Assembly (NCBI RefSeq): GCF_019511665.1
Contig: NZ_JAEUAW010000008.1
Span: forward strand, 62,001-126,000
Origin: Microbacterium jejuense
GTDB lineage: Bacteria > Actinomycetota > Actinomycetes > Actinomycetales > Microbacteriaceae
Reading direction: 5' to 3'
Length of the DNA stretch: 64,000 nt
Shown in pieces: positions 28,894 through 30,693 of this stretch. The translations under genes were made by a program, and so were the position numbers. The notes below the pieces were generated by a model. It was not told the origin of the DNA. It did not search any database and saw only the letters and a list, made by a program, of their open reading frames with translations. Every line of letters starts with the position of its first letter. Positions within the stretch are counted from its first letter, which is position 1.

Positions 28894-30693
28894 ATGGTTC
28901 CGGCGTCCCCGCGTGGCCGCGTCCCGGCGCCCCTGGGGTGGGCGGCGGGCGTCGCTGCGGTGGTGCTCGGAGCGGGCCTCGGCGAGCTCGCGGCCGCGGT
29001 CGTGGCCCCCGCATCGAGCCCGGTCGCCGTCGTCGGCGGCGCCCTCATCGACGTGGCGCCGCCGTGGGCGAAGGACACCGCGATCGCCCTCTTCGGCACG
29101 GGCGACAAGGCGGCGCTGCTGACCGGCATCGGCGTGGCGCTCGTGGTGCTCGCGGCGCTCGCGGGATGGCTCCAGCTGCGGTTCGCGCCGTGGGGCGTCG
29201 TCGTCGTGGCGGCGTTCGGCGCGGGCGGCGCGATCGTCGCTGCGACGCGTCCTGGCGCGGGCGCGATGGCGTGGCTGCCCGCGGTCGTGGCGGGCGCCGT
29301 CGGGGCGCTCGCACTGTGGCTGCTGGTCGGGATGCTGCGGCCCGATGCCGACCGTCGATCGGCGCGTTTCGTCTCGCTCGTTCCTCGCTCGCTCAACGAC
29401 CGGGAGCCGACCGCAGAGCTCGATCCCCGCTCGTTGAGCGAGCGAAGCGAGACGAAACGCCCCACGCTCGACCCCCGGGAGCCGACCGCAGAGCTCGATC
29501 CCCGGTCGTTGAGCGAGCGAAGCGAGACGAAACGCCCCACGCTCGACCCCCGGGAGCCGACCGCAGACACCGACCACCGGTCGTTGAGCGAGCGGAGCGA
29601 GACGAAACGCCCCAGCCCCGAACAGCCCAGCCGGCGCGCGTTCTTCGCGTGGGCCGGCGGCGCCGCCGCTGTCGGTGTCATCGCCGTCGCGATCGGCAGC
29701 CTCCGCACCACGTCCTCGGTGGGCGTGGCGGCGGCGCGGCGGGCGCTGCGCCTTCCGCGGCCGGCGACGACGGCATCCCCCGTTCCCGCGGGAGCCGAGC
29801 TCGACCTGCCGGGCCTCGCCGACGTCGTGACCCCGAACGACAGCTTCTACCGCATCGACACGGCCCTCATCGTGCCCGAGATCGATCCCGCGGACTGGCG
29901 GCTGCGGATCCACGGCATGGTCGCTCACGAGGTCGAGCTGACGTGGGACGAGCTGCTCGCCCTGCCGCTGCAGGAGTCGTGGACCACGCTCGCCTGCGTG
30001 TCGAACGAGGTGGGCGGCACGCTGATCGGCAACGCGCTGTGGCTGGGGTACCCGGTGCGCGAGCTGCTCGCCCGTGCGCAGCCGGACGCCGACGCCGACA
30101 TGGTGCTGTCGCGGTCGATCGACGGGTTCACGGCATCCACTCCGCTCGAAGCGCTCACCGACGAGCGCGACGCGATCCTCGCCGTCGGGATGAACGGGGA
30201 GCCGCTGCCGCTGGAGCACGGCTTTCCGGTGCGCCTGGTGGTCCCCGGCCTGTACGGCTACGTGTCGGCGACGAAGTGGGTCACCGACCTCGAAGTGACG
30301 CGCTTCGACCGGGCGCGGGCCTACTGGACCGACCGCGGCTGGTCAGAGCGCGGCCCCATCAAGCTCCAGTCGCGCATCGATGTGCCCCGGCGCGGTCAGG
30401 GCCTCACGGCCGGCGACGTGATGATCGCCGGCGTCGCCTGGCAGCAGCAGGTCGGCATCCAGGGCGTCGAGGTGCGCATCGACGAGGGCGAGTGGCAGGC
30501 AGCGACGCTCGCGACCGCGATCTCGGACGACACGTGGGTGCAGTGGAGCCTCCCCTGGCGGGCGGAGAAGGGCGACCACGTCATCCAGTGCCGGGCGACG
30601 AGCAAGACCGGCGAGACCCAGACCGAGGCCGCCGCGCCGCCCGCGCCGGACGGCGCGACCGGATGGCACTGGCGCACGGTCTCGGTGTCGTGA
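28894..30693 (+). CDS. Membrane-anchored molybdopterin-dependent oxidoreductase
   Basis: A 599-residue sulfite-oxidase-fold enzyme. Residues about 15-150 hold four membrane segments. Residues 157-244 are a low-complexity linker encoded by an in-frame 75-bp tandem repeat. A Tat-like SRRAFF motif (246-251) with a further membrane segment follows, then the Mo-cofactor domain (about 300-500) with the likely Mo-ligand Cys in TLACVSNEVGG, and a C-terminal Ig-like dimerisation domain. The catalytic part should face outside. The substrate is unknown. The family includes sulfite oxidases and the MsrP/YedY methionine-sulfoxide reductases, but no cytochrome gene lies nearby. Confidence 0.87.
   Translation: MVPASPRGRVPAPLGWAAGVAAVVLGAGLGELAAAVVAPASSPVAVVGGALIDVAPPWAKDTAIALFGTGDKAALLTGIGVALVVLAALAGWLQLRFAPWGVVVVAAFGAGGAIVAATRPGAGAMAWLPAVVAGAVGALALWLLVGMLRPDADRRSARFVSLVPRSLNDREPTAELDPRSLSERSETKRPTLDPREPTAELDPRSLSERSETKRPTLDPREPTADTDHRSLSERSETKRPSPEQPSRRAFFAWAGGAAAVGVIAVAIGSLRTTSSVGVAAARRALRLPRPATTASPVPAGAELDLPGLADVVTPNDSFYRIDTALIVPEIDPADWRLRIHGMVAHEVELTWDELLALPLQESWTTLACVSNEVGGTLIGNALWLGYPVRELLARAQPDADADMVLSRSIDGFTASTPLEALTDERDAILAVGMNGEPLPLEHGFPVRLVVPGLYGYVSATKWVTDLEVTRFDRARAYWTDRGWSERGPIKLQSRIDVPRRGQGLTAGDVMIAGVAWQQQVGIQGVEVRIDEGEWQAATLATAISDDTWVQWSLPWRAEKGDHVIQCRATSKTGETQTEAAAPPAPDGATGWHWRTVSVS
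29364..29625 (+). repeat. In-frame 75-bp tandem repeat (3 units) plus inverted copy
   Basis: Units at 29401-29475, 29476-29550 and 29551-29625 repeat with exact 75-base (25-codon) period. The first two are almost identical and the third is more diverged. Each contains TCGTTGAGCGAGCGAAGCGA at 29431, 29506 and 29581 (the last with one change). Just before them, 29364-29404 is an inverted, related copy (GTTTCGTCTCGCTCG ... CTCAACGACC). The core resembles a REP-like sequence I recall as common between genes in Microbacteriaceae. Here it encodes the linker REPTAELDPRSLSERSETKR and on. Confidence 0.9.

Follow-up and report, generated by a model that had tools for sequence, protein, structure and literature searches.

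The original work on Rickettsia palindromic elements (RPEs) is reportedly that of Ogata in 2002. As described in excerpts of a later account (PMC10969869), RPEs are dispersed palindromic repeats that lie in frame within unrelated genes and encode an inserted peptide. The GTAG and CGTC REPs are placed by parts of another study (Di Nocera 2013, PMC3733652) between convergent and same-strand genes, with element ends that give stop codons, while their intragenic dimers and clusters code for 20–30 or 43–82 residues. The same parts describe CGTC REPs as lacking a dedicated transposase, and give the CGTC families a stem of 8–9 bp, AT in the first two positions and a CCA tail. In Pseudomonas, the inverted doublets called REPINs form one hairpin, and ordered tandem clusters include flanking sequence (PMC3116915, in part). 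Finally, sections of Delihas 2007 (PMC2759123) present enterobacterial RU/ERIC-type repeats as small, mobile and keeping open frames inside annotated genes.

Dispersed repeats inside genes are therefore already known, and the Microbacterium family described here is a further case. In the open-licence literature, we found no description of a dispersed element of this kind from Microbacterium or Microbacteriaceae, and no occurrence of the 18-mer GTTGAGCGAGCGAAGCGA. The words Microbacterium and Actinobacteria are absent from the main text of PMC3733652.

An in-frame repeat array in an oxidoreductase gene

The window, that is, the whole 64-kb stretch of DNA analysed, contains no N. A repeat search of the window found a 75-nt repeat in three copies, starting at 29390, 29465 and 29540 (spacings of 75 and 75), with copies 2 and 3 showing 95% and 87% identity to copy 1. 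Units 1 and 2 differ at 4 bases, units 1 and 3 at 12, and units 2 and 3 at 8. TRF gave an array at 29400–29614 with a period of 75, 2.9 copies, 95% matches and 0% indels, the top score among the 13 rows for the window. The array (29390–29614, + strand) is thus made of three 75-bp, 25-codon units in the assembly, its exact copy number being uncertain because the genome is a 49-contig draft.

Each unit consists of ~35 bp of a dispersed element and ~40 bp of spacer. The three element copies (29431–29459, 29506–29534 and 29581–29609, all + strand) are strict matches to the family pattern given below and are all read SLSERSETKR, with one centre base changed in the third. An inverted copy on the − strand precedes them at 29364–29402 (strict match 29365–29399, 16-nt centre) and is read as RFVSLVPRSLND; inverted matches to the 75-bp units were found at 29361–29379 and 29385–29404. 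Altogether, the strict pattern matches four times in the window, against 0.00 expected from 100 shuffles. The initial annotation, which had described three units of exact 75-base period with an inverted copy before them, is confirmed.

The array lies in a gene for a molybdopterin-dependent oxidoreductase (28894–30693, + strand). The reading frame is open from 28744, and from the putative ATG start at 28894 it encodes 599 aa, with a four-helix part at the N-terminus. The protein belongs to PF00174, Oxidored_molyb (157.4 bits, cut-off 24; sulfite-oxidase-type), with the domain at residues 326–475 (29869–30318, + strand, E 3.2e-46). The repeats are read in frame as residues 157–244, so the earlier statement that a 25-codon period preserves the frame holds for an open gene of 599 codons.

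The repeats had also been said to join a four-helix part to a twin-arginine anchor and the catalytic domain. This placement is borne out by an alignment of 21 sequences, in which R247, R248 and F250 are invariant, and by the helices of a low-confidence structural model. Four hydrophobic helices are predicted upstream of the repeats by AlphaFold2 (residues ~12–37, 72–96, 100–117 and 128–148; 28927–29337, + strand), while the Tat-like motif SRRAFF (29629–29646, + strand), placed by the alignment and a model helix, precedes an anchor helix at 247–284. The model, made from 21 sequences, has a mean pLDDT of 66.6 and a pTM of 0.40; the N-terminal helices form blocks with pLDDT ~82–94, and linker residues 157–243 have pLDDT ~38–44. 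These low values are soft evidence of disorder, since overall confidence in the model is poor and values below 50 occur in parts of the catalytic domain as well; the linker is likely to be disordered. Judging by their hydrophobic sequence, the four N-terminal helices would be inserted in the membrane, and with four helices preceding it the linker should be cytoplasmic.

Within the genus, 48 of 59 and 34 of 40 genomes had a best match to the host gene at E ≤ 0.001, a few of these matches being weak or partial. The N-terminal helices, the RR motif and the catalytic part are common to the orthologues; the stretch in between does not align. We kept 136 of 140 orthologue loci, dropping L125, L133, L140 and L295 because the N-terminal part was missing, and these gave 119 distinct regions. 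From the helix loop to the catalytic start, the compared region spans 142–239 aa (median 158), and 233 aa in the protein studied here. The strict element occurs in only 1 of the 119 distinct linkers, that of the present gene. The element is absent from the nearest relative found, genome G064 (83% identity; linker as in M. kyungheense, locus L069). A loose pattern allowing two substitutions per arm gave one extra match each in L039, L043 and L127. These were taken as chance because the reversed loose pattern also gives 1 match over the same 119 linkers; the L127 match could be a decayed copy.

Other orthologous linkers carry tandem expansions of unrelated sequence, such as DPAPA in genome G051, and others were seen by eye in L063, L075, L079, L107 and L114. 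These expansions indicate that linker length and sequence drift freely. The initial annotation had held that a conserved linker common to all orthologues would speak against a mobile or REP origin; the linkers instead differ in both sequence and length. A derivation of the spacer from the DPQERTDA-like linkers of relatives was rejected, with no alignment beating shuffles at 11 loci (best p 0.16). As a separate observation, a rare repeat in G064, GAATCGGATCCGCGTGAGCGGA, occurs both in the orthologous linker (L266:1988–2112) and in a heparinase loop (L297:1928–1944); a search for it as a dispersed repeat gave 1 match in 400 kb of that genome.

The element family and its distribution

The family has the architecture TCGTTGAGCG-[variable centre]-GACGAAACG, in which the arms are fixed and the middle differs. 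The pattern TCGTTGAGCG-N(0–30)-GACGAAACG has 241 matches in the 4.2-Mb genome from which the window comes, and the 20-base core, when up to 2 mismatches are allowed, has 71 (36 + 35); both reversed controls gave 0. Absence of the core from the rest of the genome, named at the outset as a further argument against a mobile or REP origin, is clearly not what was found. The 241 places were only partly listed, and 40 stretches (308,628 bases) were picked around the listed matches; together with the window (~373 kb altogether), they hold 132 strict copies, which are thus a sample. These have 43 different centres, most commonly of 16, 10, 18 and 21 nt, and their consensus extends a little past the arms, to about CCGG-TCGTTGAGCG-[centre]-GACGAAACG-C. 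The core is 24–41 bp long in this genome. TGA occurs in one of the six frames of the element.

The heptamer d(GCGNAGC) is an unusually stable DNA mini-hairpin. It is present, with a 2-bp stem, in the 10-nt centre of 29 of the sampled copies; 37 have an inner stem of at least 5 bp and 66 have neither. The single copies of the window, with 16-nt and 10-nt centres, folded no better than shuffles, and Rfam gave no match for the element. The initial reading of a REP in the strict sense receives no support from these single short-centre copies, which are poor hairpins. The head-to-head pair at 29361–29464 (+ strand) behaves differently in folding calculations: with DNA parameters, it can form one long single-strand hairpin at −44.4 kcal/mol (z −8.64), a value equalled by 0 of 200 shuffles. 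Covariation was tested in one centre class, the 39-nt class of genomes G077 and G098 (26 distinct sequences among the 29 matches listed). In this class, compensatory changes preserve a central stem of 6 bp: 97.4% of cells are paired versus 74.8% in shuffles, and there are 25 double-change cells, where shuffles averaged 6.1 and none of 500 reached that number. The signal is lost when the partner is slid.

With genes called by a home-made codon-usage script rather than taken from curated annotation, 109 of the 132 copies are intergenic, 11 lie at 3′ ends, 1 at a 5′ end and 11 are internal, although the coding fraction of the sample is 0.893. Among intergenic spacers of at least 30 bp, the element is present in 19 of 42 convergent, 27 of 105 same-strand and 1 of 51 divergent ones, so that it avoids divergent spacers (Fisher p 2.5e-6, divergent versus the others). 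Neighbours within 200 bp are arranged head-to-head in 25 cases, tail-to-tail in 27 and in tandem in 21, with preferred distances of 10–14 bp for head-to-head and of 33 or 70–74 bp for tail-to-tail pairs. In 8 cases, the upstream gene terminates at the TGA in the element head (CGT TGA); genes ending in this way were seen in L174, L179, L184, L185 (two), L191, L196 and L209. An intergenic array of 12 elements at G000:C5:89167–90003 (in L187) has mostly alternating orientation and ~121 bp per repeat.

The element was matched at least once in 47 of 99 Microbacterium genomes, this one included; most have few matches and several have 78–272. In a family-wide sample, 4 of 199 genomes matched, namely this one, one congener and two from other genera. 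The other genera thus account for 2 of 196 genomes, with one copy each, one of which has an unusual centre. The family is nearly confined to the genus Microbacterium. The assignment of the compared genomes to this genus agrees with their orthologous linkers, some of which are identical, letter by letter, to those in Microbacterium records. A phage source was tried and rejected, an exact 29-mer having 0 matches in IMG/VR and 0 in phage records. A plasmid source was rejected likewise: one Microbacterium plasmid record, NZ_CP072877.1 (465 kb), has the element, in three places, and its best match, at 277402–277437, lies under a gene annotated as an alpha/beta hydrolase.

In-frame copies and a proposed origin of the array

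The 11 internal in-frame copies of the sample are spread over 7 genes, whose domains were checked by Pfam. The oxidoreductase holds 4 and a CcdA-like gene 2. There is one each in a CofG/CofH fusion (FbiC-like), a DnaX-like and a heparinase II/III-like gene, an ABC ATPase tail and a peptidyl-arginine/agmatine-deiminase-like C-terminal tail. When copies close to gene ends are counted as well, 15 lie wholly within called genes, and each of the five open frames is represented among them (7, 4, 2, 1 and 1); the stop-containing frame could never be scored as internal because the gene caller terminates genes at stops.

Arrays recur in the linker of the FbiC-like gene. This genome has 138 bp × 2.9 copies (46 codons; L212:2525–2930, contig C5), G051, a second species, has 72 bp × 3.1 copies (24 codons; L213:2900–3120), and TRF found no array in G064; with one genome per species, this is a difference between species. 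Strict elements are present in this linker in 2 of the 14 genomes with a match and absent from 12. The spacers of the 12-element intergenic array resemble those of the FbiC-like array. Two other repeats were seen near the gene: a tandem repeat with a 40-bp unit in 7.7 copies (L212:4795–5095), by eye unrelated to the element, and, upstream of it in G064, tandem arrays with 20-bp units (GGCATGGTCGCGCCCGAAGT and relatives; L214:612–887).

The CcdA-like protein (L177:2850–3695) has an inverted element pair in the loop following its first helix. Strict elements occur in this loop in 4 of 21 genomes (G000, G048, G051 and G044), in differing combinations; 17 are without them, and the shortest element-free loops have 23–31 residues. 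In the heparinase II/III-like gene (L180:1624–3687; L299 in G048), the loop carries the strict element in G000 and G048 but not in the other 8 of the 10 genomes compared, with looser matches in G061 and G073, and it is ~30 residues shorter in G044 and G014. Loop sites shared across species may reflect either repeated insertion or one early insertion that was altered afterwards.

For the oxidoreductase, we consider it quite likely that an inverted pair of the genus repeat came to lie in the variable linker and that a 75-bp piece was then duplicated locally in tandem. A head-to-head pair would have settled between the membrane part and the RR anchor, in a linker that, judging by the orthologues, was free to vary. 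The gene would have stayed open because the reading frame missed the one frame with a TGA. After landing, the 75-bp piece, one element plus locus-specific spacer, would have been duplicated twice, presumably through slippage or unequal recombination, and inside a gene only lengths in multiples of three would survive. We propose that the protein tolerates the repeat, nearly neutrally, because this stretch would be a disordered cytoplasmic tether. The likely order, inverted pair first and duplications later, follows from the spacer, which has no match outside the array in the 373 kb of this genome searched, while the unit's ~46-bp element part recurs at many places in those 373 kb. The relatives' linkers cannot be aligned here and so offer no base-level empty site, and in this sense we infer the insertion itself.

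The draft assembly and the mainly extragenic location of the element might raise the suspicion of an artefact: a misassembly, a minisatellite unlinked to any mobile element, or a repeat through which translation does not pass. Such an artefact is very unlikely to be the explanation, given the 71 near-exact core copies and 241 family copies in the genome, the open frame of 599 codons, in which conserved domains flank the repeat, and the recurrence of the pattern in other genes and species. Selection for the peptide, as a useful charged linker or motif, would fit SLSER..ETKR being the commonest reading (7 of the 15 copies wholly inside genes), but three of those seven belong to the oxidoreductase array, all five open frames are in use, orthologous linkers have unrelated compositions such as (DPAPA)n, and the element is mostly intergenic; this too seems unlikely. 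The nucleic acid rather than the peptide might matter if an RNA or DNA structure paused ribosomes or polymerase between the membrane and Tat parts. The folding of the pair and the compensatory changes in one centre class, the latter from two other species, are in keeping with such a role. It is nevertheless improbable here, with 118 of 119 distinct orthologous linkers free of the element, single short-centre copies folding no better than shuffles and Rfam silent.

The remaining alternative is a classical REP or REPIN that was mobilised by a RAYT (Y1 transposase) and is now intragenic. Much about the element is REP-like: it has many short, mainly extragenic copies (241; 109 of 132 intergenic), it lies at gene ends and in convergent and same-strand rather than divergent spacers, and, as in REPINs, its inverted head-to-head doublets have a preferred spacing and fold as a pair into a long hairpin (compare PMC3733652 and PMC3116915, both in part). 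Against this, PF01797, the Y1/RAYT-type transposase family, was found in none of 23 genomes of the genus and none of 20 that bear the element (37 together), in a search that was positive in 5 of 14 control genomes, including E. coli. No transposase was found either among the 20 of 22 proteins flanking the largest clusters that were scanned, which gave one weak resolvase match. A RAYT-driven origin is accordingly quite improbable. The suggestion that the core is an intergenic REP-like element thus stands as far as its dispersed, mainly intergenic occurrence in this genus is concerned, and we call it REP-like rather than a REP in the strict sense.

Returning to landing followed by tandem duplication, this one locus would combine both steps: arrival in a tolerant linker and then expansion by whole codons. 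A wider interpretation, which we offer only tentatively, is that a RAYT-independent element family may serve as a genus-wide source of disordered linkers, landing repeatedly in the same loops (CcdA-like, FbiC-like, heparinase-like and oxidoreductase) and expanding by whole codons, its arms fixed and its centre exchangeable and often hairpin-forming. If so, a piece of 'extragenic' DNA would set linker length across the proteome. Since the copies found in a given loop differ between species, Microbacterium offers a practical setting for studying how non-coding repeats become protein. It is also suited to asking whether elements move without RAYTs, and how strongly a Tat-anchored membrane enzyme depends on the length of its linker.

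Comparison with described repeats

The four systems introduced above were compared with the element on the basis of the parts of the cited papers already indicated; RPEs and intragenic REPs come nearest to it. Like RU/ERIC-type repeats, it is a small repeat with an open frame in genes; unlike them, it is not enterobacterial, and those repeats have units of 103–168 bp and another sequence. With RPEs it shares the behaviour of a dispersed repeat read in frame inside several unrelated genes and absent, by the strict pattern, from some orthologues. RPEs are however ~150 bp long with a conserved peptide, whereas the Microbacterium element is ~30–45 bp, is read in five frames, is mainly intergenic and is actinobacterial. 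Membership of the RPE family was rejected on the 24–41 bp core and the use of five frames.

The likeness to Pseudomonas REPINs lies in the inverted doublet that folds into one hairpin and in the tandem cluster that includes flanking sequence; REPINs differ in being tied to RAYT transposases, of which none was found in the 37 Microbacterium genomes. The element contains CGTC in reverse reading, but its consensus arms and stems, compared by eye, break the stem and tail rules of CGTC-tagged REP families 1–4, and assignment to these was rejected. The exact 25-codon tandem units are a feature of the Microbacterium element that we did not find described for GTAG/CGTC REPs in the parts of PMC3733652 used here. 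What the element has in common with GTAG/CGTC REPs is its intragenic coding copies, its location relative to genes and its stop-supplying ends; like the CGTC REPs in particular, it was found with no dedicated transposase.
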